Source: Bacteroidales bacterium (GTDB lineage Bacteria; Bacteroidota; Bacteroidia; Bacteroidales; P3). Taken from it: a DNA stretch of 42,046 nt. Within the stretch, counting starts at the first letter, position 1, and each line of letters starts with the position of its first letter. Both the position numbers and the translations under genes were made by a program. This document shows, one piece after another, positions 10,801 to 34,744 of the stretch. The notes below the pieces were generated by a model. It was not told where the DNA came from. It searched no databases and saw nothing but the letters and a program-made list of their open reading frames with translations. The stretch is from the NCBI GenBank assembly GCA_017429685.1, contig JAFROL010000043.1, forward strand, positions 1 to 42,046, given 5' to 3'.

Positions 10801-10878
10801 TGGTGATCTGCACAAGATTTGAACTTGTGACCTCTTGCCTGTCAAGCAAGCGCTCTAAACCAACTGAGCTAGCAGATC
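10801..10878 (-). tRNA. tRNA-Val (anticodon GAC)
   Basis: Read on the minus strand: acceptor GATCTGC/GCAGATC, D-arm GCTC..GAGC, anticodon stem CTTGC/GCAAG with loop TTGACAG (anticodon GAC, reads GUC/GUU), T-arm ACAAG/CTTGT with TTCAAAT, discriminator A and an encoded CCA. Confidence 0.95.
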
Positions 10879-12007: not shown

Positions 12008-13286
12008 CACCCAGAGTGTGGATCTTGTCGGCATCGGTGCCGGTGCGGAAAGTGGGCAGCAGGTCGTAGGTCAGACCTATCGAGCCGCCGAGAGCGGCTG
12101 GACTTCCCAAGCTTACGAATGCGCGCAGCTGCCAGGGATTCATCACATCGGTCTTTTCGCGAGTACGGTTCCAGCGGTTGTCGCTGCCCATAGTACGGGT
12201 CTCGAGGCGCTCGCCGAGATTGCACATTGCATCGACACCGAAGTTCAAGTAGAACGGTTTCTTGCCCGTTTCGGGGTTTCGCTGGCCGAAACTGTAGTTG
12301 AACTGCAGCTTCACGCCCAGATGCTCGGAATAGAGATGCTGCTGCGGTATTTCGCCCGAAGTTGGAGTGTTGAGCTGCAACGCGTTGCCGTTATAGCTGA
12401 CGCTGTTCAGCAGACGGCTCCAGTCTATATCAAAATTGAGCCACGGTTTGAACGTGAAGTTTTCGGCCAGACGGAACGGCTTGAGGAAAGAGGCAGCCAT
12501 CGTGATGCGGTAGTTCTCGCCGCGGTTGTAGGGCGAACCGCTTTTGTTGTTCATATAGAGCGGAACCGGCGAAGTGAGTCCAACGCTGACCGACACGCCT
12601 TCCAAGTGTTCCGTCCAGCTGCGGTTCACGTTCTTGACGCTTAGGTTGCGAGCGACGTCGGTTTGGTAGAGCGAACCGAAGCTATTGATATCGTTCCGGA
12701 CCTTGGTGTTGTTGCTGATGAGCACGGGGCAGTGCACGGTGGCTCTGTAGGCGCGCAGCAGCGTCAGTTCGTCGGCTGCCTGTAGCGTGTCGAGCCGCAG
12801 CGTCGCGTCGTGCTCCACATCCACCTCGAGCTCTTTCTCGCCCTTCCACGAGCGACCGCTGACGGTGGCGCCTTCAAAAATATTCACGTTGGCACCTTTG
12901 CCGTAGAACAACAGGTCGTCCGTTTCGACCGTCGCGTTCTTATTCACGCACAGATAGTGGAGCTTGTGCTTCAGCGTGATTTCCACGACCGTGCTTTTCG
13001 GCATCTGGCTGTTGCTCCGCAGGGTCAGCTCGCGACCTTTGACCGCGCTGACTTGCGGCTCATTACCTTCTTCGAAGAAGACGCTGCACGGCGTGACGAT
13101 GGTCACCGACGACTGCTCGCCGTGGCGGATGCGCACCTGCCATCCGTCGTAGATGTCGAGGCTGCTGATGCTGTCGGGTATGGGTTGGCTGATGCGGTAT
13201 TCGTTTTGTGCGCTTGCATTTGTGCCAAAGGCGAAAACGATAAGAACAATAAATGTTGCTGCTGCTAAAAGAGTTGATTTTTTCAT
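11991..13286 (-). CDS. Secreted GIN-domain (DUF2807-like) protein with C-terminal beta-barrel
   Basis: 431 residues with a signal peptide (MKKSTLLAAATFIVLIVFAFG). Residues about 25-210 look like the beta-helical GIN/auto-transporter-head domain: SISSLDIYDGWQVRI, VTIVTPCSVFF, VEITLKHKLHYLCVN. Residues about 225-431 are strands of an outer-membrane barrel and end in LGVTLSF. It is probably exposed at the cell surface with the barrel in the outer membrane. It lies 75 bp behind the anti-sigma-like gene in the same direction, so it may be a target or sensor of that sigma system. Its last bases overlap the dus gene. Function not known. Confidence 0.72.
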   Translation of the reverse strand: MKKSTLLAAATFIVLIVFAFGTNASAQNEYRISQPIPDSISSLDIYDGWQVRIRHGEQSSVTIVTPCSVFFEEGNEPQVSAVKGRELTLRSNSQMPKSTVVEITLKHKLHYLCVNKNATVETDDLLFYGKGANVNIFEGATVSGRSWKGEKELEVDVEHDATLRLDTLQAADELTLLRAYRATVHCPVLISNNTKVRNDINSFGSLYQTDVARNLSVKNVNRSWTEHLEGVSVSVGLTSPVPLYMNNKSGSPYNRGENYRITMAASFLKPFRLAENFTFKPWLNFDIDWSRLLNSVSYNGNALQLNTPTSGEIPQQHLYSEHLGVKLQFNYSFGQRNPETGKKPFYLNFGVDAMCNLGERLETRTMGSDNRWNRTREKTDVMNPWQLRAFVSLGSPAALGGSIGLTYDLLPTFRTGTDADKIHTLGVTLSF

Positions 13287-13361: not shown

Positions 13362-14066
13362 TTAGAATGCACTGGTTCCTATGCCAATGGTAGTACCTGT
13401 GCTTGAGATATTTGTGAAAGCAAAACGGGGCGAATCCTCTTGGCTGGGACGCACTTCGGGACGGCACCCCGAGCCACAGACCAGACGTGAAGAGGTACGC
13501 TCGTAGACAATCGGAGATGTGGGATGCGAGATGTTAGTTTCGTTCTCCGTTCCCCTATTTCCATTTTCCGTTTCCTCGGCAAAAAGCGGTTCGTCGGGCA
13601 AAACGGTGGCCGTTTCAATAGCGGTTTCTTTCTCTTCAATTTCATCCTGCCGCGACTCGGGCGACTGCACCTCAGCCGGCGTTTTGCTTTGCGCAAGAAT
13701 CGGAGATGTATGCGGCTTGAGCACCGGTACGACGACATCGGTTTGCGTAGCGGGGATGCCTGCAGTCGAATCGACAGCAGTTGTCGGGTGCGGTTTGGTT
13801 CCGGCAACCAACTGCTGCTGAGACGGCGAAGTGCTGTTCTGCGAAAGGATGTGCAGCCCTACGCTGGCCAGCAGCAGGATGCTGGCGGCAATACCCGCAT
13901 ACGTCCAAAACAGACCGCCTTTCGCTTTCCGCTTTCCGCTTTCCGCTTTCCGCTCGCCTTCCGCCAGGCGGTCAATCATATCGCTCAGCTGCTGCTGGCG
14001 GCGCTGGTCGGCCTCGCGGCGTCGCGCGGCCTCGAAAAGTTTGTCTATATCCTGATTGTTGTTCAT
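13362..14066 (-). CDS. Single-TM anti-sigma-like protein with repeat-derived inserts
   Basis: 234 residues. The N-terminal ~50 are charged and helical (DIDKLFEAARRREADQRR). One TM segment follows (about residues 53-72), then a long low-complexity, Ser/Thr/Pro/Glu-rich periplasmic part. This topology and the 4-bp ATGA overlap with the upstream ECF sigma gene suggest an anti-sigma factor, although no zinc-binding anti-sigma motif is present. Two stretches come from GCGGAAA-type repeats: AESGKRKAK just before the TM (about residues 35-49), and ENGNRGTENE further on (about 164-175). The first lies where a sigma-binding segment would meet the membrane. Confidence 0.65.
   Translation of the reverse strand: MNNNQDIDKLFEAARRREADQRRQQQLSDMIDRLAEGERKAESGKRKAKGGLFWTYAGIAASILLLASVGLHILSQNSTSPSQQQLVAGTKPHPTTAVDSTAGIPATQTDVVVPVLKPHTSPILAQSKTPAEVQSPESRQDEIEEKETAIETATVLPDEPLFAEETENGNRGTENETNISHPTSPIVYERTSSRLVCGSGCRPEVRPSQEDSPRFAFTNISSTGTTIGIGTSAF
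13541..13576. repeat. Degenerate TTCTCCG/TTTTCCG repeat inside the anti-sigma gene
   Basis: Units TTCTCCG, TTCCCCT, ATTTCCA, TTTTCCG and TTTCC read in frame on the minus strand. They give an ENGNRGTENE-like stretch in the periplasmic part. Confidence 0.65.
13921..13964. repeat. TTTCCGC heptamer array inside the anti-sigma gene
   Basis: About five heptamer units plus degenerate flanks. On the coding strand they read ERKAESGKRKAK immediately before the TM segment. Confidence 0.85.
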
Positions 14067-14560
14067 ATCTTAAGGGTTTTGATTTTATCTTTCAATGATT
14101 GTATTGCACGCGAAATTGTTGTGTAGACATTGTTGCTGCTCATCTGCAGGGCCTGTTCGATGTACTGCGTGTCGCGTTCTTCGACATACTTCATCCGCAA
14201 GGCCCGCCGTTGTTTTTCGGGCAGTTCGTCAAGCAGATGGTCCAGCAGGGCGGCATCGTTTCGTGTTTCCTCGACCTGCATCGTCACCTCCTTGTCGCTC
14301 AGATAGGCAATCTGCTCGTTGTGGAAAGCGTCACGTTTGCGCTTGCGAATCAGGTCGATGCATCGCAGGCGCACCATCTGCAGGCAATAGGAATCAAGCT
14401 TAACAACGCGATCCAGCTCGTCGCGCCGACTCCACAGGGCAACAAACACGTCCTGCACAACATCCTCGGCGTCAGCCACATCGCCAAGCATACGCTCGGC
14501 CAGCAGCTGCATCGGGCTTTGCAGCGGGATTATATGTTCCTTGAACTTTGTTTGGTCCAT
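14063..14560 (-). CDS. ECF-type RNA polymerase sigma factor
   Basis: 165 residues when started at the ATG at 14560 (MDQTKFKEH). The frame runs 24 codons further upstream, but that extension is poor. Region 2 shows AEDVVQDVFVALW (about residues 30-50), then a linker. Region 4 shows LPEKQRRALRMKYVEERDTQYIEQALQMSSNNV with a helix-turn-helix near the C-terminus. It directs RNA polymerase to extracytoplasmic-function promoters, probably including its own. The next gene overlaps by 4 bp and encodes the likely anti-sigma factor. Confidence 0.9.
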   Translation of the reverse strand: MDQTKFKEHIIPLQSPMQLLAERMLGDVADAEDVVQDVFVALWSRRDELDRVVKLDSYCLQMVRLRCIDLIRKRKRDAFHNEQIAYLSDKEVTMQVEETRNDAALLDHLLDELPEKQRRALRMKYVEERDTQYIEQALQMSSNNVYTTISRAIQSLKDKIKTLKI

Positions 14561-14838
14561 TCCTGTTTGTATTTGACTATATGACGAACGGGCGGGCGAT
14601 TTCTTACACAAAAACGGAAAATTTTTTTTCAAATTATTTTTCCTGTTACAAAAGTGTTCAAATTGTCAAAAAAAAAGTGAAAATTTTATCATCTTGACGC
14701 GTTCTGCCAACAACAAAAGCAAAAAAAAGGAGAATATTTACCGCGCACAAACCACTGGTTTACAACTAGCAGAACAAAACAAACGACAAAAGATGCAAGA
14801 TTTTGGTTCAAAACAAACTACGTTTTAAAAAAAAGTTG

Positions 14839-14896: not shown

Positions 14897-14971
14897 GGTC
14901 TGTTAGCTCAGTTGGTTCAGAGCGCTTCCTTCACACGGAAGAGGTCTACAGTTCGAATCTGTAACAGACCA
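14897..14971 (+). tRNA. tRNA-Val (anticodon CAC)
   Basis: Acceptor GGTCTGT/ACAGACC, D-arm GCTC..GAGC, anticodon stem CTTCC/GGAAG with loop TTCACAC (anticodon CAC, reads GUG), T-arm TACAG/CTGTA with TTCGAAT, discriminator A. CCA is not encoded; the sequence continues CTTTTTATTTT, which may act as a terminator tail. Confidence 0.95.
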
Positions 14972-15122
14972 CTTTTTATTTTAATGCGTACGCGGCAACA
15001 TTAAGGTTAAAGTTAAGGTTCATCCGACTTTCAGTTCTTCTTTTTATGTCCGAAAAATCAGGCAGTTGAAAAACAGCATCAAAATTTTTGACAATTACGG
15101 CCTTATATTCGGAAATTCTTCG

Positions 15123-15130
15123 TAAATTTG
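15123..15130 (+). promoter_or_regulatory. -7 element (TAAATTTG) of the tubulin-like operon
   Basis: TAAATTTG lies 31 bp before the ATG at 15161 and fits TAnnTTTG. It is the only promoter-like site seen ahead of the four-gene operon. Confidence 0.55.
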
Positions 15131-15160: not shown

Positions 15161-16813
15161 ATGAGACAAACAAAGACAGCCGTTCTGCTCGTTTTTGCCT
15201 TTATGATGGCGATAAACACCACCGTTTCGCAAAACGTGGCCCTGCAGGTAGTCAACAACGACTACCCCAACCTGATGGAACTCTACCGCCAAAAAGGCGA
15301 TGCGCTTGGCAATCAGAAAGCTCACCACATCTTCGCCATCGACGTGTCGACTTTTATGCGGAAAAACATCAATGAAATCCGTCCGCAAATCAACGACTTC
15401 ATTATGGCTCTGCCCGACGGCGACCAGGTAACGCTGATCCGCAAGTCGTCGACCGACAAGACCGACTATGTAGGCGGCGTGGTCAACCTTGAAATCAACA
15501 GTGAGTCGCGCCAAACGCTGCGCAACATCCTGACCAGCGACGCCTTCGCCGTGCAGGATGCCGGCTCGGATGGCTATACAATGACCTCCAAAATACTCGA
15601 CGCCATAATGAACCCGATGAGCGAAGGCCTAGTTTTCGTCTTTATGTTCACCGATTTTGAATACTGGACCAGCGCCAACGGCTACGACAAAAGCAAAGAA
15701 GACTGGGAAGCCCTCAAAACAAAGTTCAAACCCTTCATTGACCTGACGAGCGGCGACCAGAGCCGCGTGGTGCTGCCCTACGCCTTCTACTACCGCGACA
15801 ACGACTACCGCGCAGCCTCTGACTACCGTCCCGAACTGGAGTCGATTTTCGGATGCAAACTGAACCAGCCCCCCACTGGCGACGCCGTGATTCTGCGCAA
15901 CTTCTTCAACAAAATGGAGACCAACGCTCTGGTATTCCGGCTCAAATACCTGATCTATCAAGACCTGACAAAAACCAACGTCACCTCAGCGCTGTCGCTA
16001 TCGGACAACAAAGAGATTCTGATGACGACAGACCTTGACGGACTACAGATTTTCGACAACTACACCTACGACATAACCAACGAGCCCGAATGTCTCGAAA
16101 AGGCTTTTGTACGGCAAAACAACGCCGAACTGGCTTTCGGCAACGGCGCTGCATTATACAATTTCAACAACAAATACTCCCCCCTCCTGCCCCACTGGAC
16201 CATCCTGCACGGCAAAATGGCGTACACCATTCATCCGGTGTGCAAAACAAATCTGGCCGTTGAACTCGACAAGCTCAATGCTCTCGACGAATCGCTCGTG
16301 CTCGACTACAAGCGGCCCTACGACCTCGAGGCACAGCTTCCGTCGGGATGGTTCTACTCCCACATCCTTCCGGCATGGGTCGGCATAGCCCTCGTGCTGC
16401 TGTTGCTGGCCTACGGCATTTGCTGGTTTATAACCCTCCTGCTCAACAAGTTCGGCAAAATTTACCGCACTTGGAACATCATTGTCACAACCGACGATGG
16501 CGAAAATCAGGAAACCTTCTCGCACAGTTTCCCGAAAGCAAAAAAAGTCACCGTATCGCCATCGACACTGGGCATCCCCAATGGCGGCAGCTGGAAATTC
16601 GACATCATCACCGTCGACGGACCCATCTACCGCCTGTGGCACCAACGCGGCTACTACATACGCCGCGGTTGCCCGATGAACATCGAACGCAAAGGCAAGA
16701 CAAAAGCATTGCCAAACAAGGAATACCGCGTTACACCCCTGAAAAAATGGGGACAAGGATGCAAACTGAAATTCAAGAACGACAATATGGATTATGTCGT
16801 TAAAATCCAGTAG
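15161..16813 (+). CDS. Periplasmic VWA-like protein with one C-terminal TM (gene 1 of tubulin operon)
   Basis: 550 residues: a signal peptide (MRQTKTAVLLVFAFMMA), a large periplasmic part, one TM at about residues 402-428 (PAWVGIALVLLLLAYGICW), and a cytosolic tail of about 120 residues. The segment HIFAIDVSTFMRKNI (D61-V-S63-T-F65) and a later FMFTDFEYW (near 164) look like a VWA Rossmann fold. Its metal site is incomplete: the third MIDAS residue is Phe instead of Ser. It probably binds a partner without, or with weakened, metal dependence. It is first in a four-gene operon, 57 bp before the tubulin-like gene, and could connect the periplasm to that cytosolic protein. No closer family is recognised. 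Confidence 0.8.
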   Translation: MRQTKTAVLLVFAFMMAINTTVSQNVALQVVNNDYPNLMELYRQKGDALGNQKAHHIFAIDVSTFMRKNINEIRPQINDFIMALPDGDQVTLIRKSSTDKTDYVGGVVNLEINSESRQTLRNILTSDAFAVQDAGSDGYTMTSKILDAIMNPMSEGLVFVFMFTDFEYWTSANGYDKSKEDWEALKTKFKPFIDLTSGDQSRVVLPYAFYYRDNDYRAASDYRPELESIFGCKLNQPPTGDAVILRNFFNKMETNALVFRLKYLIYQDLTKTNVTSALSLSDNKEILMTTDLDGLQIFDNYTYDITNEPECLEKAFVRQNNAELAFGNGAALYNFNNKYSPLLPHWTILHGKMAYTIHPVCKTNLAVELDKLNALDESLVLDYKRPYDLEAQLPSGWFYSHILPAWVGIALVLLLLAYGICWFITLLLNKFGKIYRTWNIIVTTDDGENQETFSHSFPKAKKVTVSPSTLGIPNGGSWKFDIITVDGPIYRLWHQRGYYIRRGCPMNIERKGKTKALPNKEYRVTPLKKWGQGCKLKFKNDNMDYVVKIQ

Positions 16814-16870
16814 ACCATCATTCATTATTCAAATTTTCATCAACGTAAACAAATCATTAACTTAATACAT

Positions 16871-19800
16871 ATGCCAAAGGGAATTTTTATCGGAATTGGT
16901 GGCACAGGTGTCACCACCGTTGCAAGACTTAAAGCACTGCTTTTCCAACGTGCTTATGGTTCAAACAAAGCAGAAATGGATGCCGACTGCACGTTCATTT
17001 TTTACGACACCGATTCCGGTGCCAAGAACAAGGCTTTAGCCGATGCCGAGTTGAAAAGAATGATGGGAGGCTATCCCGTTATCGACGAAGGAAATGAATA
17101 TGTGGATGCCGGTCCTACGGCCCCCTACAATATATATATGAACGCCCTGGCCACCGCCTCCGAGCCCGGTAGCCAAAGGCTGCTGGAATGGGCTATTGCA
17201 CCAAACGTGCAAGGCCACTTCCAATTGCCGCAAAAACAACTGAGAGAAGGCGCCGGAGCTCAACGTATGGCTGGCCGTACGGGCATATTCAACTGCCACG
17301 ACAAAATGGAAAAACGCATCAGGACAGGCCTTAACGGGATGACTAACCTAGCCAATCAAGGTGCCAATATGGAAGTGGAACACCCAGCCATCTGGGTCTT
17401 CTCGTCAAGCAACGGCGGCACCAGCAGTTCGGCGCTGCTCGACGTGCTCTATATGGCCGACAGGCTGTACAAGGCTCACGTGGTCGACACAACCCCCTAC
17501 CTTCGACTGGTTCTGTATATGCCCAAGGCCTTCATCGACGCGAACAGCAAAAACGCTATCACATACGGGCGCAACGCATACGCTACTATGTGGGAATTGA
17601 ACGAATTCCGCTACGATGCCTACGAACGCATGGACGGCAACAAGTTCGGTTCGTTTGCAGTAATGCCCGACAAGACGGATTGGAAAGTCAGAACGCCCTG
17701 GAGCGTATGTTCGTATGTTATGGGGGTAGACACCGAAAGCCAGTCGGGCAGTGTGTCGATTGACCAAATGTATGCCAACACCGCCGAGCTGTGCTACTTC
17801 CTGCACACCGGTGCCGCCGGCAGAACAATGATCAGCAACATCGACAACGACCTGGCTAACGAAGGTCCTTACGCTCACAGCTTGAAAACTTCAACCGACG
17901 ACCCATTCCAGTGGACCAAGTTTATCGTCGGCTCAGGATACAAAGCCATCACCAAGGCCGACGACTTTATGAAGGAATATGTGCGCAGCCGTATCCACTA
18001 CGACCTCTTTGGCTACGGACTTCTGGGACTCCCTATGGAAAAGATACTGCGGACCCCTGAAGAAAGGATGGCCGCCGCCGAGAAATTCACTACGGAATAC
18101 ATAACCAAGCACCTTGCCAACATCTCGAAACTCGACAGCTCGCCAAAAGACAGCCTCTACAACCGATACAAGGTCGAATTCGACAACGTTATGATCCCGT
18201 CCGAAAGCGAAGTCCCGTCAAAAGAGGAATGGGCCGAAATGGGCTCGATTTTCATCGGCAACTGCAAAGAGGTCGTTCAGAAGCTGCAGAACCGGTTCAA
18301 CGATCCCACCCAGTCCGGCTCGAAGGTGTGGACCCTTGGCGAAATCGAAAAAAGCGTAATGAAAGGCGTCGACAAAAACATCATCGACTTCGGTCTCAAC
18401 TACACCCACATGCTACTCACACTGGTTGACGACGACTATTGCGAAAAAACCATCCTCGGCAAACTGAAGCAAAAAAACAACCTTGCGGACATCGAAACTG
18501 AAATCAACGACATCATCGCCAACAACAGACCCAAAAAAGGCATCGGCGACCTGGTCGCAAAGATGACCGAATATCGCAACAGCTGCCTCAAAGAACTCGC
18601 CATAGAGCACATCCGGACCATCATAGCGAGCATAACAAAAGAGAATGAGGGCCTGCTGGAATATATCCGCAAAGGCAATATGAGCCACAAGGGCATTTCC
18701 GGCCTTATGGAAACTGTCAACTCCGCTTTGGGCACCTACAAAAAGCAATATCAGGAACTGGCTTCCACCTTCAAGAAAACCGAACAGGAGGTATGCTCCG
18801 ACTATTTCCCCCAAGTGCACAAATTTGTGGAAACCGGCGACATCTGGGTACGCAACAACATCTTCGAGACGAAATACTCGACCATCCTGCCATTAGACAC
18901 CACCGATGGCGCCGAAGTGTTCGAAAGCACCAACTACGGATGTCCGCCGATGAGAAAAGTCGGCGACAAAGGCCTTGCCTGTATGCTTGGCGAGATTAAA
19001 GCACGCATCCCCAACCGTGCGCTCCTTTATGCCGAAATGGTGTTGAGCAATCCTCAGACACAGTTCACTGCGATCTATTCCGAATTCATAAAACACCTTA
19101 ACAAGTACATCGAAAGCCTCTTCAGCGCTACAAACGATGTCAAAACTTGGCTGGAGCAGCCGCTAAGTACCGTATTCGACGAATATTTCTCTAAAGACGG
19201 AGATATCGACGAGTCACAACGTCAACAGTATATAACAAAATTCACGGCCTCAGTCCCTGTTTTCTATCCCTGCTCGACGGGCGCCAGCCCTGATGTTACA
19301 GAAAGATGGATCTATGTCGGCGCCTCCCAGAGTTTTGCACAAACTCTGGGATTCAGGGACGACGCACCTGAGAAACAGTACGTTCCCGACAACAGCATCG
19401 GGAACCGCTTTTTAGTATGCAAAATCGAAGTCGGACACAACTTCTACGATTACAAGTATTTCCGCACTGTCAAGAATTACTACGAAGATGAGAAGCGAGT
19501 AATTGAAAACGAAGGCAGCGGATGCCATATCCACAAAGATTTTGTGCGCCGTAATATTGAAACACCATTCGAACAGCACAAACAGAAAAAATTCAGCGAT
19601 TTCATCTCTTTATGCTGGTACGATAGCTTCTTTGAAAGCCTGAACGAAATGCAGGACAAGACCTATATCGAGACATTCTTTGGACGTCCTATGGCGTTAC
19701 CAAAAATGCCAAATCCGGGAAATGCTATGTCCGGTATGCCATTCCCCAACGGTGCTATGCCTGGTATGCCCGGCCAGCAACCCGCTATGCCTGGTGTGCC

Positions 19801-20545
19801 CGGCCAGCAACCCGCTATGCCTGGTATGCCCGGTCAGCAACCCGCTATGCCTGGTATGCCCGGTCAGCAACCCGCTATGCCTGGTATGCCCGGCCAGCAA
19901 CCTGCTATGCCTGATATGCCCGGTCAGCAACCCGCTATGCCTGGTATGCCCGGCCAGCAACCCGCTATGCCTGGTATGCCCGGCCAGCAACCCGCCATTC
20001 CTGGTATGCCAGGCCAGCAACCCGCCATTCCTGGTATGCCAGGTATGCCCGGTCAGATGCCCAATATGCAAGCGACAGCAATGAACCCCGACATCGAAAA
20101 CGGATACAAACCGTTTGTATCCATTAATAATATCGGTCAATTGAAAATCAAATTTGATCGATTGGTCGTGTACAACAACATTCTCGGCTTTGAAAGGAAT
20201 AACTCTCACGAGCTCTCGTTCGCAAACTCTTACTCCTTCACCGACATCTGGCGCAACATCATTAATTACGATGAGGTGTACTACATTGAAGATTATGTCA
20301 CACTCATCAGCCAAATCTTCAAAAAACTATCTTACAACAAGAAAAAAGAATTTCAACAGCTTTTCTACTCTCAGTCATACATCTACAACAACAACGGCAA
20401 CTTCTATGGCGAAGTGTGGAACCGCTTCATAAAGAAAATAGAACCACTCACCCAATTCTATGGCGGCACAAACACCGACGAGGCCGTATGGTATCATATG
20501 ATAACCACCATCTACACCCTACTTTCCAAAAACATCTTCTATTAA
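16871..20545 (+). CDS. Large tubulin/FtsZ-superfamily protein (Tubulin_2-like) (gene 2 of operon)
   Basis: 1224 residues, cytosolic, without signal peptide or TM. The N-terminus IFIGIGGTGVTTVARLK is a Rossmann-type glycine loop. IFYDTDSG follows near residue 45, and SSSNGGTSSSALLD at about 178-191 corresponds to the tubulin/FtsZ signature loop GGGTGS/T that holds the nucleotide phosphates. This fits the Pfam Tubulin_2 (PF13809) group rather than FtsZ. A long helical region (about 430-900) has no match I know. Residues about 964-1053 are nine copies of PGMPGQQPAM, probably a flexible linker, followed by a folded C-terminal domain of about 150 residues. It lies between two VWA-type membrane proteins with 12-57 bp gaps. 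GTP binding and polymerisation are inferred, not shown. Confidence 0.85.
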   Translation: MPKGIFIGIGGTGVTTVARLKALLFQRAYGSNKAEMDADCTFIFYDTDSGAKNKALADAELKRMMGGYPVIDEGNEYVDAGPTAPYNIYMNALATASEPGSQRLLEWAIAPNVQGHFQLPQKQLREGAGAQRMAGRTGIFNCHDKMEKRIRTGLNGMTNLANQGANMEVEHPAIWVFSSSNGGTSSSALLDVLYMADRLYKAHVVDTTPYLRLVLYMPKAFIDANSKNAITYGRNAYATMWELNEFRYDAYERMDGNKFGSFAVMPDKTDWKVRTPWSVCSYVMGVDTESQSGSVSIDQMYANTAELCYFLHTGAAGRTMISNIDNDLANEGPYAHSLKTSTDDPFQWTKFIVGSGYKAITKADDFMKEYVRSRIHYDLFGYGLLGLPMEKILRTPEERMAAAEKFTTEYITKHLANISKLDSSPKDSLYNRYKVEFDNVMIPSESEVPSKEEWAEMGSIFIGNCKEVVQKLQNRFNDPTQSGSKVWTLGEIEKSVMKGVDKNIIDFGLNYTHMLLTLVDDDYCEKTILGKLKQKNNLADIETEINDIIANNRPKKGIGDLVAKMTEYRNSCLKELAIEHIRTIIASITKENEGLLEYIRKGNMSHKGISGLMETVNSALGTYKKQYQELASTFKKTEQEVCSDYFPQVHKFVETGDIWVRNNIFETKYSTILPLDTTDGAEVFESTNYGCPPMRKVGDKGLACMLGEIKARIPNRALLYAEMVLSNPQTQFTAIYSEFIKHLNKYIESLFSATNDVKTWLEQPLSTVFDEYFSKDGDIDESQRQQYITKFTASVPVFYPCSTGASPDVTERWIYVGASQSFAQTLGFRDDAPEKQYVPDNSIGNRFLVCKIEVGHNFYDYKYFRTVKNYYEDEKRVIENEGSGCHIHKDFVRRNIETPFEQHKQKKFSDFISLCWYDSFFESLNEMQDKTYIETFFGRPMALPKMPNPGNAMSGMPFPNGAMPGMPGQQPAMPGVPGQQPAMPGMPGQQPAMPGMPGQQPAMPGMPGQQPAMPDMPGQQPAMPGMPGQQPAMPGMPGQQPAIPGMPGQQPAIPGMPGMPGQMPNMQATAMNPDIENGYKPFVSINNIGQLKIKFDRLVVYNNILGFERNNSHELSFANSYSFTDIWRNIINYDEVYYIEDYVTLISQIFKKLSYNKKKEFQQLFYSQSYIYNNNGNFYGEVWNRFIKKIEPLTQFYGGTNTDEAVWYHMITTIYTLLSKNIFY
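19760..20029 (+). repeat. Nine in-frame 30-bp repeats (PGMPGQQPAM)
   Basis: Each 30-bp unit begins CCTGGTATGCCCGG and encodes PGMPGQQPAM, with variants PGV, PDM and PAI. Near-identical third positions show recent expansion. The stretch continues as PGMPGMPGQMP. Confidence 0.97.
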
Positions 20546-20557
20546 TAGTAATGTATT

Positions 20558-23500
20558 ATGAATGCTCTTTGGATCATAGACTTGACAGAATCGCAGAACG
20601 CCATTAAGGCGTTCTACGATTCTTTTTGGCAAGCCTTTCTCGACAACCAGAAAGACCCAAACTATCCCGTCGGCAAACGCGAACCGTGGTTCCATATCTC
20701 CACTCCCGAACAGTTAGGGCTGACCATCAACGACAACGACTCCCCTCAGGACATAAGCGACAAAATTTACTCCGCCGTCAGAAAAGCCGACAACCTTATC
20801 AACCCGCAGAATGGAATGATAAAATATGACTTCGCTAACCAAAACGAGCTCAACCGTATCCTGGTCATTCTGATTGGCGACACCAATACCACTGACACTC
20901 AACGCTTTTTCCTACCTCTGGCTACAAGCCTCAAATACGACACGCAGCAGCCTACGCACTGGAACCCAACAGGAAACGTTTACTTCTACGGTATGCTATA
21001 CCGCCGGCAGGAAGTGGCATCAGGCAATTTCCTGCAGGACAACGAGAAGGCCTTCCTCAACCAGATGCACAACATACAGAACGTATGGAACACCTTCAAC
21101 CACGTCCTCTTTTTCGAAAAACCCGAGACACAGAAAGATGAAGCCATAAAGAATATGGCTCTAGCATCATTGCATCTGGCTTTCGAGGACTCGCACGACC
21201 ACCACGTGCTGAGAAAATACGAAAACCGCGCCACCATCCCCACCTACCTCAACGCCGGAGCCAGCGGCATCTATTTCGAACGAGAAGTCGAAAACGACCG
21301 CGAGGCTTTCGTTACAGGACACACCCTGCTCGACGCTTTCGTCAACAGCACGGACAAGGAATTCTACAACCTCGATGCCGCCAAGGAAAGAGCCAAGAAT
21401 ATTTCTGTGTTCAAAAACAACGAACTCGACGAACACAACCTCTACCGTAAACTGTCGGCCAATATGCCCGAACTGGACACCAAGGATTTTGATGTCGAAA
21501 TGCCCATCAGCCCCGGAAGTCCGCAAGTGCGCAAAGTCTGGCCCCGCTATTACGACAGCCAGAATGGCTATATCGCCAACGTCAAAGCCAAATTGGTCAA
21601 CAACGTCAAACTAGCACTGGCTATACACGAACACGAGTACCTGAAACAGCTGGCCAACAATCAGCTGGACTGGATCAAAGCGCAGTCAGCAGCCATCGAA
21701 AACGGCATCTTCGACGTCTTCGACGACGAGCATCCCGACACGCACTGCAGTATGAACCAAGCCATCGAAGTGGCCAAACAAGCCGAAATCCTCGCCGCAA
21801 AACAAACTCTTAGCATTGAAAACATCCGCCTCGAAGAAGACGGCCTTCCGCTGAGACCTATCAAAATTCCCAAACGCTATCAAAAAGCATACGATACAGC
21901 TCAAATAAACGGCGAAAAATCTACTCAGGCTGTACTGAATGAACTCGACAAGATGCTCAGACGGCATCCCGTATTTATGTTTTCCACCTTCAGTCGTGCT
22001 CTGCTTATCGCCATCATCCTCTTCGCCTATTTCCTCTTCATCAGCCCCATCGCCGCCGCCATCCTGTTCGTCGCCGCCATCGCCGCCTATTTCGTGCACT
22101 ACAGATGGTTTATGAACAACCTCCGTAGCCTTCAGGACCGATATGTGGCCATTTCGCTTTACGAACTGAACAACAAGTTGCTTCTTAACTACAAGAACGC
22201 CATCCACAAATCGCAAAGCGACATTCGCGACTACTGCAAATGGAACTGGGAAAAGCGCCTCGCAATGCTGCGCAACAACCTCGGCGTATTCATTCCGAAG
22301 AGTTACCATTTCGAACCTTTCGACGAATTCCAGCCTCTGCTTACCGACAACCTCATCATCGACCCGAGAGAAAAATTCCAAAAAGTGGTAAGAAACGACG
22401 AAAAGCCGAACAACGAACCACTTATGAAACCCGGTGCTTTCGACGACATCGCTTTGCTCAAAGACTTGCCAAACTTCGATGTCGCTCTCAGTTGGTCGGC
22501 AAACAGCAAAAGCGTGCTGGATCTGGACAACGCCGACAAACAGCGACTCATCTACGACCTGATGAAGCAAACCGCTCAAGTGCCACAACGCCTCGAAGAA
22601 AACCTCGACCCTGCCAAGATGGTTGTCAACACCGGCGGCAGCGTAACGCTTATGCTCGATGTGTCGGGAAGTATGTGTGGCAAACCGCTCGACGACCTCA
22701 AACAGGCTGTCAATGACCTAAAAGACAAATTCGGCGACAGCGTGCGTTGGGTTGCTTTCGCAAGCCAGGCAACACTTGACACCGATGTCGACAACGACAT
22801 CGACAAAGCCTACGCCTCCTGCGGAGGCGGCACTGCCTATGTTCCCGCACTCGATCTACTTATGACGGCAAACCAAAAAGGACAAATCGAACTCGAAAAA
22901 CTAGTCATCATCAGCGACGGCGAACCGTTCGACGTAGAGGAATCGCGCAACAAAATCCTGGAGCTCGGTTGCGAGGTCGATGTCATATATATCGGCAACG
23001 GCAACGAGGCATTCCTCAAGGAACTCGCTGAGTCGACAGGCGGAACGCTTCAGCAGGTCGACGACGTCAAAAGCGCCAATATCCAGACCGTCGTTGCCGA
23101 AGGCATCGCCACAAGCTTCAAACTCGGACAGGCAGGCAACTTCCCATTCGGCGACCTGCTCAGGAAAAGTGCCCTCAAAGAATGTATGCTCGCCCTGCTC
23201 ATCTTCACCAAGGACATTATGGTTTCAGGCCACAAGTCTATCGAGGCCACTATTGCCGACAACGGCAACAACGCAGGTCTCATCAACTGGCTACAGCAAA
23301 GGGCCAAAATATGCACCACCAACCCAGGTGCCGTCCTCGACTCGACCGACATCTTGCTGAAAAGTTCCGGAATAGAGCAAGAACGTATGTGTCAAATGCT
23401 GCAATCTCTTTGCCCTGCATTCAGCAACAATGCCGACAACATCCGCAGGTATAAGCTCGTAACACCTGTCGACCACATCGGCGACAAATCCTACTCGCCC

Positions 23501-23695
23501 GATTCGCCCGACATACTGCTTACCCAGCTGCACATCCAGCCCCTCAAAGGCATTGGCGACCTGGCCTGGTCTTTCGACGCTTTCAACGACAAGCAGATCA
23601 ATTCCGATCCAAGATTCGATATGCTTTTCCGTTCGTACTTCAACTTTAATCCAAACTACACTTTTGTCAACATTTTTAACCAACCAATCGCTTAG
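20558..23695 (+). CDS. Membrane protein with cytosolic VWA domain, intact MIDAS (gene 3 of operon)
   Basis: 1045 residues. The N-terminal ~465 residues are soluble and unfamiliar; the start MNALWIIDLTESQNAIKAF itself resembles a Rossmann strand. A TM hairpin at about 470-516 (SRALLIAIILFAYFLF, then AAAILFVAAIAAYF) is flanked by basic residues on both sides, so both halves should be cytosolic. The VWA domain begins near 693. It has a full MIDAS: DVSGSM (about 701), GGGTA (about 755) and SDGEP (about 786). After it come about 220 residues of unknown fold. It starts 12 bp after the tubulin-like stop. VWA domains with full MIDAS bind partner proteins through a metal; here the tubulin-like protein is the obvious candidate. 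Confidence 0.85.
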   Translation: MNALWIIDLTESQNAIKAFYDSFWQAFLDNQKDPNYPVGKREPWFHISTPEQLGLTINDNDSPQDISDKIYSAVRKADNLINPQNGMIKYDFANQNELNRILVILIGDTNTTDTQRFFLPLATSLKYDTQQPTHWNPTGNVYFYGMLYRRQEVASGNFLQDNEKAFLNQMHNIQNVWNTFNHVLFFEKPETQKDEAIKNMALASLHLAFEDSHDHHVLRKYENRATIPTYLNAGASGIYFEREVENDREAFVTGHTLLDAFVNSTDKEFYNLDAAKERAKNISVFKNNELDEHNLYRKLSANMPELDTKDFDVEMPISPGSPQVRKVWPRYYDSQNGYIANVKAKLVNNVKLALAIHEHEYLKQLANNQLDWIKAQSAAIENGIFDVFDDEHPDTHCSMNQAIEVAKQAEILAAKQTLSIENIRLEEDGLPLRPIKIPKRYQKAYDTAQINGEKSTQAVLNELDKMLRRHPVFMFSTFSRALLIAIILFAYFLFISPIAAAILFVAAIAAYFVHYRWFMNNLRSLQDRYVAISLYELNNKLLLNYKNAIHKSQSDIRDYCKWNWEKRLAMLRNNLGVFIPKSYHFEPFDEFQPLLTDNLIIDPREKFQKVVRNDEKPNNEPLMKPGAFDDIALLKDLPNFDVALSWSANSKSVLDLDNADKQRLIYDLMKQTAQVPQRLEENLDPAKMVVNTGGSVTLMLDVSGSMCGKPLDDLKQAVNDLKDKFGDSVRWVAFASQATLDTDVDNDIDKAYASCGGGTAYVPALDLLMTANQKGQIELEKLVIISDGEPFDVEESRNKILELGCEVDVIYIGNGNEAFLKELAESTGGTLQQVDDVKSANIQTVVAEGIATSFKLGQAGNFPFGDLLRKSALKECMLALLIFTKDIMVSGHKSIEATIADNGNNAGLINWLQQRAKICTTNPGAVLDSTDILLKSSGIEQERMCQMLQSLCPAFSNNADNIRRYKLVTPVDHIGDKSYSPDSPDILLTQLHIQPLKGIGDLAWSFDAFNDKQINSDPRFDMLFRSYFNFNPNYTFVNIFNQPIA

Positions 23696-23700
23696 GAGGA
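23694..23700 (+). promoter_or_regulatory. Strong Shine-Dalgarno (AGGAGGA) overlapping a stop codon
   Basis: AGGAGGA starts within the TAG of gene 3 and lies 7 bp before the ATG at 23708. Such strong sites are uncommon in Bacteroidota and support coupled translation of genes 3 and 4. Confidence 0.75.
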
Positions 23701-23707
23701 CAAGGCT

Positions 23708-25165
23708 ATGACTATAAACAAAATAATTTGGATTGCAACATTATCTTTGCTTGGACTTTCACTCTTGCTATTCCTTTTCAGGCTCCTGTTTCGCAAGCGT
23801 CTGCTCTCTGGCGTTGCCGACGATGCGGCCAAGCAGGTCTTCAACTTCAAGGAATTCCTCAAAATGGCCTACCCCTCCGCTTTGCTCTATTCGCTACTCT
23901 ACCTCCTCTTCCTCATCGGCTTAATCGTTTACTACAGCCACTCAGCAGACACAGCAAGCATCGACGGCATTCGCAACGCCCTAGAAAACGGTTCCGACGG
24001 CATCAATGCCGCCAGCTGGATGCCCGCCCTCATCTGTTTCTTCTTAGGCATCTGGCTCACAATGCATATCGTCGATATGGACTGCCGCAGCCGCAACCGG
24101 CCCTTCGCCCTTTTCCTCAAGGCTCTGAACACCAACACCGGTGCCAGCACGTGGAACTACGTCATCCTTGTCTCTTCGTTCGTCATCCTTGTCTTTTCCA
24201 TCATCACCCTGGTTTCATCTCACCGCTACTACATCTGCATGCCCCTGTTCATCGCCATTTTTGTCGCTATGCTGACCAACATCTTTTGGGGCGGCAGCAA
24301 CGACGACTGGAATGTCAAAAAACCATCCCAGTCAAAATGGACTCCCGGCGACGACAACAAACACGTCAAAATCAAAGCCGGAACACAGGACAGCGATGGT
24401 CGGACACCTGAAGGAAAAACACCCGTAGAACTCACCTTCAGATGGAACCTCGCAAAAAAATGGGGCATCAACTCCGACAGCTCCGACACCGTCAAACTGA
24501 CCCTCTACAAAGAAGACTGGGACGAACCCGACTCTCAGCTCCGCAAAAAAAATCCATTCTACGGCATCTCCGACGATGGCACCACTATGAACTGGCTCTT
24601 CGCCATAGGACAAAACATCCACCAGTCGGCCACACAAGTGGTCGGTGGTCCCGACGACGACCAATACCAGAGCGAGCAGGATGCTTTGGACCTTATTGTG
24701 CAGAGTGCTATCGACATAGCCGACAAATACGGGCTCGCCGACTTCGAAGTGCCCGAATTGCTCCTCTCCTTCTCTCAAAGCGACGAAATCAAGTACAACG
24801 AAGACCAAAACTCGGCACCCATCAACAAATTCAACATCACCGACGCTGACGGCACACAACGCCTCGAATACTTCCGTTTCGCCGCCGAAACTCTCTACGA
24901 CCGCGAAGGCGACTGCGACTGCAAATCCGTACTCGCCTACCGATTACTGAAAACCCTCGGTATGGATGTCAAACTCATCGATATATGCGACAAAGGGGCA
25001 TCGACACCCACCCACGCCGCCATTATGCTCAAAGACGACACCAACCGATACCCCAAGTGCACCAAATATCCCGAATACACCTACTGCGAAGCCACATCAA
25101 ACGGTTGGCGCATAGGCAACATTCCCGAAGATTTTGACCCCCTATCGATAGGCATCCTCGCCTAA
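23708..25165 (+). CDS. Polytopic membrane protein with C-terminal transglutaminase-like domain (gene 4 of operon)
   Basis: 485 residues with about five TM segments in the first 200 (roughly 6-26, 55-76, 103-120, 150-170, 175-195). Basic loops (FRKRL, CRSRNRP) predict that the C-terminal part is in the cytosol. Residues about 340-485 look like a transglutaminase/papain-like fold: EGDCDCKSVLAYRLLKTLGM (candidate Cys near 402-404), PTHAAIML (His near 436) and YCEATSNGWRIG (third residue, Glu, near 461). Such domains act as proteases, acyltransferases or inactive binding modules. It is the last gene of the operon. A processing role on the neighbouring proteins is speculation. Confidence 0.8.
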   Translation: MTINKIIWIATLSLLGLSLLLFLFRLLFRKRLLSGVADDAAKQVFNFKEFLKMAYPSALLYSLLYLLFLIGLIVYYSHSADTASIDGIRNALENGSDGINAASWMPALICFFLGIWLTMHIVDMDCRSRNRPFALFLKALNTNTGASTWNYVILVSSFVILVFSIITLVSSHRYYICMPLFIAIFVAMLTNIFWGGSNDDWNVKKPSQSKWTPGDDNKHVKIKAGTQDSDGRTPEGKTPVELTFRWNLAKKWGINSDSSDTVKLTLYKEDWDEPDSQLRKKNPFYGISDDGTTMNWLFAIGQNIHQSATQVVGGPDDDQYQSEQDALDLIVQSAIDIADKYGLADFEVPELLLSFSQSDEIKYNEDQNSAPINKFNITDADGTQRLEYFRFAAETLYDREGDCDCKSVLAYRLLKTLGMDVKLIDICDKGASTPTHAAIMLKDDTNRYPKCTKYPEYTYCEATSNGWRIGNIPEDFDPLSIGILA

Positions 25166-25211: not shown

Positions 25212-25241
25212 AAAGCGGAGAGTGACACCACTCTCCGCTTT
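25212..25241 (-). terminator. Terminator of glyA (13-bp perfect stem)
   Basis: AAAGCGGAGAGTG pairs with CACTCTCCGCTTT around ACAC. On the minus strand it is followed by TTTGTTTTTTG. It lies between the convergent tubulin operon and glyA and may end both. The stem shares GCGGA(A/G)A with the dispersed heptamer. Confidence 0.88.
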
Positions 25242-25263
25242 ACATTTATAAATCCATTCTATT

Positions 25264-26544
25264 TTACCACGCAAACAGCGGGCGGTTCTGCATCATCTCG
25301 TTGGCCTGGCCGGCAACGCGGGCGCGGACGGCCTCGTCGGTCGGATTGCAGAGAACGGTGTCGATCATATCAACAATCACCTTCATATCGCCTTCTTTAA
25401 GGCCACGGGTGGTGATAGCCGGAGTTCCGACACGCAGACCACTGGTCTTGAAAGCACTGCGGCTGTCGAAAGGAACCATATTCTTGTTGATGGTGATGTC
25501 GGCGGCAACCAGTGCGTTCTCAGCCTCCTTACCGGTCAGTTCAGGGAACTTGGGGCGCAGGTCGATAAGCATCAGGTGGTTGTCGGTACCGCCGCTGATG
25601 ACCTTATAGCCCTTGGCCATAAAGGCCTCGCTCATCACCTTGGCGTTCTTCATCACCTGCTGGATGTACTGGTCGTAGCTGTCGGTCAAAGCCTCGCCCA
25701 GAGCCACAGCCTTGGCGGCAATGACATGCTCCAGAGGACCACCCTGTGTGCCGGGGAACACGGCGCTGTCGAGCAGGGCGCTCATCTTCTTGATTTCGCC
25801 CTTCGGAGTGGTCTTGCCCCACGGGTTGTCGAAATCCTGACCCATCAGGATCATACCGCCGCGCGGTCCGCGCAGGGTCTTGTGGGTCGTGGTGGTGACG
25901 ATGTGGCAATACTTCACGGCGTTGTTCAGATACCCCTTGGCAATCAGACCACTGGGGTGGCTGATGTCGCCCATCAGGATAGCACCAATCTTGTCGGCAA
26001 TTTCGCGCATACGGGCCCAATCCCAGTCGCGGCTGTAAGCCGAACCGCCACCGATGATCAGTTTCGGACGATGCTCGAGAGCCTTCTTCTCCATATCGTC
26101 ATAGTCGACCGTACCGGTCTCTTCCTTCACCTGGTATCCAACCACTTTGTACATAATGCCGCTAAAGTTCACGGGGCTGCCGTGGCTCAGGTGACCGCCG
26201 TGGTTCAGGTCCATACCCATAAAGGTGTCGCCGGCGTTCAGGCAAGCCAGGAAAACAGCCATATTGGCCTGTGCACCGCTGTGGGGCTGTACGTTGGCCC
26301 AGCAGGCACCATACAGTTTCTTGGCACGCTCGATGGCGATAGTCTCGCTCTGGTCCACAATCTGGCAGCCGCCGTAGTAGCGCTTGCCGGGATAGCCCTC
26401 AGCGTACTTGTTCGTCATCACGCTGCCCATAGCTTCCATCACCTGGTCGCTAACAAAGTTCTCGGAGGCAATCAGCTCGATGCCTTTAGTCTGACGCTCA
26501 CGCTCTTTCTGTATGAGGTCAAAAATCTCGTTATCTCTTTGCAT
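25264..26544 (-). CDS. glyA: Serine hydroxymethyltransferase
   Basis: 426 residues, full length. The PLP enzyme interconverts serine and glycine and supplies one-carbon units to tetrahydrofolate. Seen: [11 protein letters not shown] near the N-terminus, [24 protein letters not shown], and [14 protein letters not shown] with the PLP-binding lysine near residue 230. The start [18 protein letters not shown] is typical. It has a good promoter upstream and a strong terminator downstream, so it is probably a single-gene unit. Confidence 0.97.
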
Positions 26545-33303: not shown

Positions 33304-33380
33304 CAGTGAATAGTGACCTGTGACCAGTGACCTGTGAGACGAGCGGGTTTGTTTCACTGGTCACAGATCACAGGTCACAC
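33304..33380. repeat. GTGACCTGTGA-type hairpin element between aspA and nqrA
   Basis: Left arm with GTGACCTGTGACCAGTG (33313-33329) and a further GACCTGTGAG. Middle ACGAGCGGGTTTGTTT. Right arm CACTGGTCACAGATCACAGGTCAC (33355-33378), the reverse complement with a 7-bp insertion. The nqrA ATG follows 10 bp later, so the element is the leader of nqrA. Confidence 0.88.
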
Positions 33381-33387
33381 ATATATT

Positions 33388-34743
33388 ATGAATACAATAA
33401 AAATAAAAAAAGGGTTAAACATCTGCATACCGGGGACCGCCGAAAAGCGTGTCTCCGATATGCATTTGCAAGGTTGCTTTGCTGTGAAGCCCACCGACTA
33501 TGTTGGCGTGGCCCCGCGACTGCTGGTCGCCGAGGGCACGGAGGTGCAGGCCGGCACTGCCCTGATTGAGGACAAAGGCAACGCGGCGGCGCGTTTTGTG
33601 TCGCCCGTCAGCGGCACGGTCAAAGCGATTGTTCGCGGCGAGAAACGCGCATTGCTGGCTGTGGTCGTTGAAGCCGACGGCGAACAGAAAAGCATCCGGT
33701 TCGACACCGACGCCACCGCTGCCGACGGAATACGCAAAACGATGATAGAGAGCGGACTGTGGACACTTCTGAAGCAGCGTCCGTTTGGCATCATTCCGCA
33801 AGGCGACGCCCAACCCAAAGCAGTCTTCATATCGGCTTTCGACTCGTCGCCCCTGCCCGTCGACCTGCCGTTTATGCTCGAGGGGCGCAAAGAGGATTTC
33901 CAAGCCGGAATCGACATTCTGCACACCCTTGCCGGCACGGTCCACCTTTCGCTGCAGGCGGGCAAAGAAAACTCGTTTTTGGGATCCATAAAAAACGCTG
34001 AAATACATTATTTTGACGGCCCCCACCCTGCCGGACTTGTGGGCACGCAGATTGCCGCCATCGACCCCATCAACAAGGGCGAGACGGTGTGGACTGTTAA
34101 TGCGCAGGATGTGGCAACTATCGGCCGTCTCTTCACAACGGGCGTCTACAACCCCGAACGGTTGGTGGCGCTGTGCGGCCCCGTGGTGGAAAAACCGCAC
34201 TACCTCCGCACTTTGGCCGGAGCCAGCATAGAAGCGGAAAGCGGAAAACGGAAAGCGAAAAGAGTCCGTTTCATCAGCGGCGATGTGCTGAGCGGCACGA
34301 CGATAGCTGCCGACGGATTCATCAGCGCCGCGTGCGACAAGGTGAGTGTCCTGCCAGAGGGCAACTACTACGACTTCCTCGGCTGGCTGCGTCCCAACTT
34401 CAAGAAATTCAGCTTCTCGCGCACTTTCTTAAGCGGATTTTTCAAGCGGAAAGCGGAGAGCGGAAAGCAAAGAGCGTTCACTTTTAATTTCGACACGGGT
34501 CGCCACGGAAGCGTCCGTCCGCTGTTTGTCACCGGCGAGTTCGAGAAGCTGGTGCCGATGGACATCTATCCGATGCAGCTCATCAAAGCCTGCATCGCCG
34601 GCGATATCGAGCAGATGGAGAACCTCGGCATCTACGAGGTGGAGCCCGAAGACCTGGCCCTCTGCGAGTTTGCCGACACGTCGAAAACCGAAATCCAGGC
34701 CGCCGTGCGCGCTGGTTTGGAGAAAATAAGAAAGGAGAGCTGA
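33388..34743 (+). CDS. nqrA: Na+-translocating NADH:quinone reductase subunit A, with two repeat-encoded segments
   Basis: 451 residues from the ATG at 33388 (MNTIKIKKGLNICI). The frame is open upstream, but that part is only repeat sequence. NqrA is the peripheral quinone-binding subunit. Recognisable: PVSGTVKAIVRGEKRA, FISGDVLSGT, VSVLPEG, FGIIPQG and PLDI-like PMDIYPM. Residues about 282-292 (AESGKRKAK) sit exactly where homologues have a charged loop before the ISG.VLSG motif. Residues about 353-363 (KRKAESGKQRA) replace a loop after FLSGFF. Both are read from GCGGAAA arrays. The rest is well conserved, so the subunit is probably functional. Confidence 0.95.
   Translation: MNTIKIKKGLNICIPGTAEKRVSDMHLQGCFAVKPTDYVGVAPRLLVAEGTEVQAGTALIEDKGNAAARFVSPVSGTVKAIVRGEKRALLAVVVEADGEQKSIRFDTDATAADGIRKTMIESGLWTLLKQRPFGIIPQGDAQPKAVFISAFDSSPLPVDLPFMLEGRKEDFQAGIDILHTLAGTVHLSLQAGKENSFLGSIKNAEIHYFDGPHPAGLVGTQIAAIDPINKGETVWTVNAQDVATIGRLFTTGVYNPERLVALCGPVVEKPHYLRTLAGASIEAESGKRKAKRVRFISGDVLSGTTIAADGFISAACDKVSVLPEGNYYDFLGWLRPNFKKFSFSRTFLSGFFKRKAESGKQRAFTFNFDTGRHGSVRPLFVTGEFEKLVPMDIYPMQLIKACIAGDIEQMENLGIYEVEPEDLALCEFADTSKTEIQAAVRAGLEKIRKES
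34231..34262. repeat. GCGGAAA array inside nqrA (first)
   Basis: Four heptamer units plus GCGAAAA, read in frame as AESGKRKAK. Confidence 0.93.
34445..34475. repeat. GCGGAAA array inside nqrA (second)
   Basis: Four units (GCGGAAA, GCGGAGA, GCGGAAA, GCAAAGA), read as KRKAESGKQRA. Confidence 0.9.
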
Positions 34744-34744
34744 G

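Follow-up and report, generated by a model that had tools for sequence, protein, structure and literature searches.

A tubulin-like gene and its membrane partners at an exchangeable tRNA-Val/glyA site in Bacteroidales

Results

A four-gene operon of a Bacteroidales bacterium (genes g1 to g4) occupies positions 15161 to 25165 of contig JAFROL010000043.1 (GenBank assembly GCA_017429685.1), whose 42,046 nucleotides form the window analysed in this study. Its second gene encodes a protein of the FtsZl1/Tubulin_2 family, and the other three encode proteins with a predicted signal peptide or transmembrane (TM) segments, in keeping with the membrane-spanning set proposed in the first-pass annotation of this DNA. 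We favour, tentatively and with somewhat less than even confidence, the reading that the locus belongs to a distinct, mostly Bacteroidota clade of the FtsZl1/Tubulin_2 family and makes one complex across the inner membrane. What the present analysis adds to that first annotation is a fifth gene (g5) in relatives, a predicted complete but split tubulin fold in g2, a possible tubulin fold in g3 and the exchangeable site in which the operon lies.

The product of g2, an open reading frame (ORF) called at 16871..20545 on the forward strand, matches the Pfam family Tubulin_2 (PF13809) with 98.6 bits against a cut-off of 27, along residues 5-374 and positions 1-349 of the 356 in the model, and is the sole match to that family in its own genome at E≤0.001. 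In the predicted structure a GTPase half (~1-425) is followed by a long helical region (~429-640, mostly helices) and then by a second tubulin half (~640-894), which supplies the second (C-terminal or activation) domain; these bounds were taken from the secondary-structure string, and the C-terminal part of the protein lies outside the model. The prediction bears out the tubulin-superfamily assignment for the N-terminal fold, and we reject the alternative that g2 is not a tubulin fold: as modelled, it is a complete tubulin-superfamily protein split by an insert. Compared with tubulin, CetZ, TubZ and FtsZ, with which it shares 10-15% identity in the predicted-structure comparison, g2 differs in the helical insert of ~200 residues that splits the fold and in a degenerate glycine loop. 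That loop, SSSNGGTSSS, is present as first described, and the superfamily signature GGGTG(S/T)G is not found in the window copy (NGGTSSS), whereas most relatives carry xGGTGSG. A search of the g2 profile against the FtsZ proteins of nine loci gave nothing significant, and its best E of ~0.03, g2 being compared with FtsZ itself, indicates that profile comparison is insensitive at such depth. A 30-bp tandem repeat of 9.6 copies (19754-20040) encodes a Pro/Gln-rich MPGQQPA stretch in g2 and is not found in the three relatives aligned with it. At one other locus (L091, 2782-6138) g2 was matched by tblastn, yet no single open frame was called.

The four ORFs lie on the same strand with gaps of 57, 12 and 12 bp, as initially reported, and a profile-guided scan of genome contigs returned 47 loci of this kind (type A), in every one of which gene order and strand are kept. 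The genes thus travel together, and the contrary proposition is rejected; all four were seen in 41 of the 47, the other six being cut or having one gene uncalled. These loci were found through g2, and linkage is accordingly measured to the type A g2 rather than to every FtsZl1 protein. Forty-four are labelled Bacteroidota, many of them of rumen or gut origin; L112 is labelled Fibrobacter, L086 and L128 are labelled archaeal, and these three contigs may be misbinned. The type A tubulins form one clade (support 100/99), with the window on a divergent branch together with L083, L086 and L064; a long-branch warning from the tree tool covers, among others, L086 and the window's pair. Near-duplicates (L085, L096, L101, L115, L124) were excluded from the module comparison and the tree and are included in the counts out of 47, 48 and 44 and in the 32 of 42 given for g5.

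Among 41 genomes (the window's own and 40 relatives) a g2 protein search found a match in four, its own included, and among 393 genomes drawn evenly from the order, at E≤1e-10, in one, its own. Within the family, 20 of 190 genomes scored above the PF13809 cut-off, as did 11 of 395 in the class; many of the weak matches are open frames of ~500 residues that resemble ordinary FtsZ. The 20 listed matches above 100 bits in the family divide by their neighbours into five of type A (the window, L064, L080, L081, L082), two of type B (L076, L077) and 13 others, which among the gene maps listed are mostly of type C, a tubulin of ~1030 residues with small secreted and membrane genes; on the tree the type C label means neither A nor B, and L070 falls outside the main C group. 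Single loci also deserve mention. L086 (3512 bp, a metagenome-assembled genome (MAG) labelled Heimdallarchaeota) and L128 (Methanomethylophilaceae) carry type A g1 and g2, and L086 is one of the closest matches of the window (35% in the best segment); either misbinning or transfer could explain these contigs. L112, from a MAG, has all of the operon, and no other g3 observed is as long as its 1229 residues. Genome G453 carries both a type A (L064) and a type C (L073) tubulin, and G006 carries two tubulins of the tree's type C group (L068, L074). In L057 the type C partner following the tubulin (12619-13260) has a MORN repeat (PF02493, 2.3e-7) and one predicted TM segment.

The first gene, g1 (ORF 15161..16813, forward strand), encodes a protein with a signal peptide, a VWA domain that prediction places in the periplasm, a TM segment at ~409-427 and a tail predicted to be cytosolic. 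VWA_2 matches all 35 aligned g1 members at E≤0.5 (best 2e-10), so that the operon counts as having a vWA gene and the description of g1 as exported and VWA-bearing stands; the Pfam VWA match of the window protein itself reaches only E 0.1. The broken metal ion-dependent adhesion site (MIDAS) noted earlier is real, residues 61-65 reading DVSTF in place of DxSxS/T, and it is private to the window: the 48 aligned rows comprise DVSGS (17), DVSGT (14), DVSLS (10), DISSS (2), DVSRS (1), DVSTF (1, the window) and three without residues there, so that of the 45 rows with residues all 44 besides the window have DxSxS or DVSGT. A natural swap supports the topology of g1 and indicates that its tail goes with g2. 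In L083 the periplasmic part of g1 is closer to L064 (0.60) than to the window (0.28) and the tail closer to the window (0.68) than to L064 (0.25); the resemblance changes over near residue 426, directly behind the TM segment.

The third gene, g3 (ORF 20558..23695, forward strand), encodes an N-terminal domain of alternating beta and alpha elements, a TM hairpin (~476-530) and a second part that holds a VWA domain in the window copy. There the VWA_2 match scores 25 bits against a curated cut-off of 27 (E 3e-5) and the MIDAS is intact (DVSGS at D701, GGGTA, SDGEP). The claim of two VWA-type proteins therefore stands for the window and fails for the family: Pfam VWA is matched in one of 32 g3 members at E≤0.5, the window's own, while a few others contain stray DxSxS strings without a VWA match, and we reject a second VWA as a general feature of the operon. 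No Pfam family is common to more than three of the 32. The g2 and g3 profiles scored 24.0 against each other, no better than shuffled columns (2 of 20 shuffles were higher), by a method insensitive at such depth; g3 is possibly a membrane-anchored tubulin-like protein.

The fourth gene, g4 (ORF 23708..25165, forward strand), encodes about five TM segments followed by a domain with the triad C403/H436/E461. Together with matches of the family to PF04473 (23 of 33 members, best 4.4e-8) and PF01841 (20 of 33, best 1.6e-5) at E≤0.5, this triad upholds the transglutaminase-like character proposed for the C-terminus, the window protein itself having no Pfam transglutaminase match even at E≤1. In 44 aligned rows His436 is kept in 40 and an acidic residue at 461 in all, while Cys403, and with it the full triad, is found in 16 rows including the window; on these counts we reject the idea that every member is an active transglutaminase. 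A further gene, g5, comes next in 32 of the 42 relatives whose sequence extends beyond g4. It bears a zincin signature (HExxH...EGxA) in most full-length copies, with only weak Pfam peptidase matches, and was not found in the genome of the window or in G453, G440 and G434 by a search that does find it in G424. The system keeps its folds but often loses its catalytic residues.

The operon stands between a tRNA-Val (cac) gene (14897..14972, forward strand, ARAGORN) and, on the reverse strand, an ORF at 25264..26544 that we take, from its sequence, to be glyA (serine hydroxymethyltransferase). On the left, the DNA of the window and of L064 (genome G453) agrees at 95.3% over 1875 bp and parts at 14977, 5 nt past the tRNA, and identity with L076 (G434) ends at 14972; on the right, identity returns at 25258 with L076 (91.5%) and at 25264 with L157 (G364, 91.1%). 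Inside these borders L064 shares just an 86-bp DNA match with the window, in g1, and encodes a different type A allele (g1 39% over 169 residues). L076 has a type B system between the same flanks, and in L157 the tRNA and glyA lie ~250 bp apart with nothing between them, an empty site. Each of these states is represented by one genome; L130 was rejected as another empty site, a run of N separating its tRNA and glyA. A tRNA-Val adjoins glyA in 2 of 40 glyA flanks (L130, L157), hence the site is not general in the genus, and no tRNA-Val (cac) is present in the other 38 stretches, some of them short at contig ends. GlyA proteins are 95% (G008) and 89% (G440) identical to that of the window, against 25% and 22% for g2, which means that core genes differ far less than the operon. 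Integrase models matched none of the four genes, and inspection of the right border showed no copy of the tRNA end, although no systematic search for one was made. These observations suggest that the system is accessory and swaps alleles, instead of serving as a housekeeping function, and the site offers natural comparisons among close relatives with the operon, without it or with it swapped.

Both signals first proposed around the operon were located by eye. Upstream, the string TAAATTTG (15123..15130, forward strand) ends about 30 nt before the ATG of g1 and recurs identically ahead of the first gene of L064 and of L076; we take it to be a Bacteroidetes-type -7 promoter box. Downstream, a hairpin, AAAGCGGAGAG...CTCTCCGCTTT (~25212..25241), is probably a bidirectional terminator common to the operon and the convergent glyA. 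Directly left of the tRNA, at 13362-14632, lies a gene for an extracytoplasmic function (ECF) sigma factor overlapped by one for a one-TM protein, which is probably its anti-sigma and has no NCBIfam match; the pair is common to the window, L064, L076 and L130. The window has a second tRNA-Val gene ~4 kb away from the first (gac, 10801-10878, inverted), and NqrA and NqrB genes (Na+-translocating NADH dehydrogenase) at 33334-35938.

Discussion

In the complex that we propose, g2 would form GTP-dependent polymers on the cytosolic face of the inner membrane and dock through g3, perhaps a tubulin-like partner without the glycine-rich loop, and through the tail of g1. Binding of a ligand or peptide by the periplasmic VWA domain of g1 would change the polymer by way of that tail, and the polymer would in turn cluster and switch the transglutaminase-like domain of g4, presumed cytosolic, as the output. 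A membrane-anchored zincin would join the output in relatives with g5, and in type B systems a papain-like membrane protein would take the place of the transglutaminase-like one. An accessory system whose alleles are swapped seems better suited to a conflict or self/non-self task than to routine cell shaping, an idea that we draw from the exchange at the site and from analogy with the systems of Kaur et al. 2020.

Several observations weigh against this proposal. In the window the glycine loop of g2 is weakened, the MIDAS of g1 is broken and g5 is absent, so that this copy may be decaying or may function in another way. Of 44 g4 rows, 16 retain the catalytic Cys, and HExxH is present in 21 of the 31 g5 copies of full length, so that the output need not be proteolysis. 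The cytosolic position first given to the g4 domain is supported in the window by a rough lysine/arginine count and not in most relatives, where the C-terminus of g4 falls inside in 18 of the 44 rows and outside in the other 26, although g4 TM counts range from 2 to 7 and make parity unreliable for such orientation; the g5 C-terminus falls inside in 27 of 32. By this count neither g4 in relatives nor g5 fits the favoured topology. PADLOC models gave a best E of 0.015 on the four proteins, no clear defence signal appears in the flanks of relatives, and no relative was found in the phage, plasmid or viral collections.

One further reading extends the proposed complex. We consider it conceivable, though doubtful, that g2 and g3 are an unequal tubulin pair building a heteropolymer fixed in the inner membrane. 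Through it, a VWA receptor in the periplasm would be coupled to papain-fold enzymes, and the whole would act as a conflict system that can be exchanged. There g2 would be the soluble, complete, insert-split tubulin and g3 an integral-membrane pseudo-tubulin without the glycine-rich loop, its membrane hairpin sitting where g2 has the helical insert. A TM-bearing FtsZ-like protein has a precedent in a Sulfolobus solfataricus protein with N-terminal TM helices, noted in PMC2875224; in the literature searched we found no membrane hairpin inside a tubulin fold and no such soluble/membrane tubulin pair. If g3 is such a partner, it would define an unusual cytoskeleton branch with a polymer tied directly to a periplasmic receptor.

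Makarova and Koonin 2010 (PMC2875224) proposed from genome context, for the family as a whole, membrane remodelling or vesicle formation, in which the inner membrane would be bent by an FtsZl1 polymer through its ties to membrane proteins. The tubulin fold of g2 and the TM segments of all three partners agree with this proposal. We nonetheless think it unlikely here: the accessory, allele-swapped distribution speaks against it, the peptidase-like partners are left unexplained, and a reviewer whose comments were printed with the paper was already doubtful. The operon could also be a conflict system directed at phages or competitors, equivalent in Bacteroidota to the tubulin/vWA systems that Kaur et al. 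2020 described; the polymer would then be a nucleoside triphosphate-driven assembly step and the peptidase-like proteins the effectors. This too seems to us unlikely. The divergent alleles at the tRNA-glyA site and the alternative papain-bearing system there favour it, as does the GAP1-N2 theme, which has a tubulin and two vWA genes, with two tubulin genes in Firmicutes; but Kaur et al. 2020 (PMC7159879) state the theme to be limited to firmicutes and actinobacteria, no GTPase/GAP1 partner is among the four genes, catalytic residues are frequently lost, and phage and plasmid carriage is rejected, no relatives having been found in viral contigs, phages or plasmids. Few PADLOC matches lie in the flanks: among 116 of the 133 listed proteins of relatives (200-1300 residues, nearest few genes; those excluded are mainly long ones and the proteins of L097 and of part of L098, which resemble L092), 12 PADLOC families matched at E≤1e-8, each in one or two members, including PDC-S01, PDC-S33 and MzaA besides housekeeping-type names (GlgB, DndA, SspA), which without a matched control is weak evidence either way and does not support a defence island. 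There is little to commend a role in assembling or anchoring a surface or secretion apparatus, with g1 resembling the type VI protein TssR of Bacteroidota and the tubulin positioning it. TssR_VWA matches 4 of 35 g1 members (best 3.4e-6), but general VWA models match more members and score better, and beside the operon only g5 recurs in many loci (32, the next families in at most seven).

The type B system of L076 resembles the window in plan, with a VWA-like first gene (a DCTTS strand, its profile link to g1 weak), a Tubulin_2 second gene (E 9.4e-48) and a third encoding a 1248-residue membrane protein with a papain-fold enzyme (PF00112, E 7.1e-18), all between the same flanks. It differs in that papain replaces the transglutaminase-like domain and its tubulin falls outside the type A clade, and profile comparison of its first and third subunits with g1 and g3 gave nothing convincing. 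The GAP1-N2 DO-GTPase systems of Kaur et al. 2020 (PMC7159879) likewise combine tubulin genes with two vWA genes, one having a TM segment and an extracellular vWA domain, and a membrane focus. Those systems belong to Firmicutes and Actinobacteria and the window to Bacteroidota, and P-loop GTPase and GAP1 models matched none of the four window genes at E≤1; for the flanks of relatives the view extends to 25 of 119 families.

The link to the FtsZl1/Tubulin_2 family of Makarova and Koonin 2010, drawn at first pass, is upheld. As in the FtsZl1 operons of that paper (PMC2875224), whose Figure 1 legend names a Bacteroides caccae member, the window has an N-terminal tubulin domain with a long helical region after it, a vWA partner and membrane partners. 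Unlike those operons, its four genes include no OmpA, kinase or GTPase gene; the partners are instead g3, the transglutaminase-like membrane protein g4 and the zincin of relatives that have g5, and one of the unnamed associated families of 2010 may be g3, g4 or g5. The 2010 work could find neither T6-H7 nor similarity in the C-terminal domain and left open whether a second tubulin domain is present and whether filaments are formed, whereas here a complete split fold is predicted. A whole fold interrupted by a helical insert would make the FtsZl1 question testable on a defined domain.
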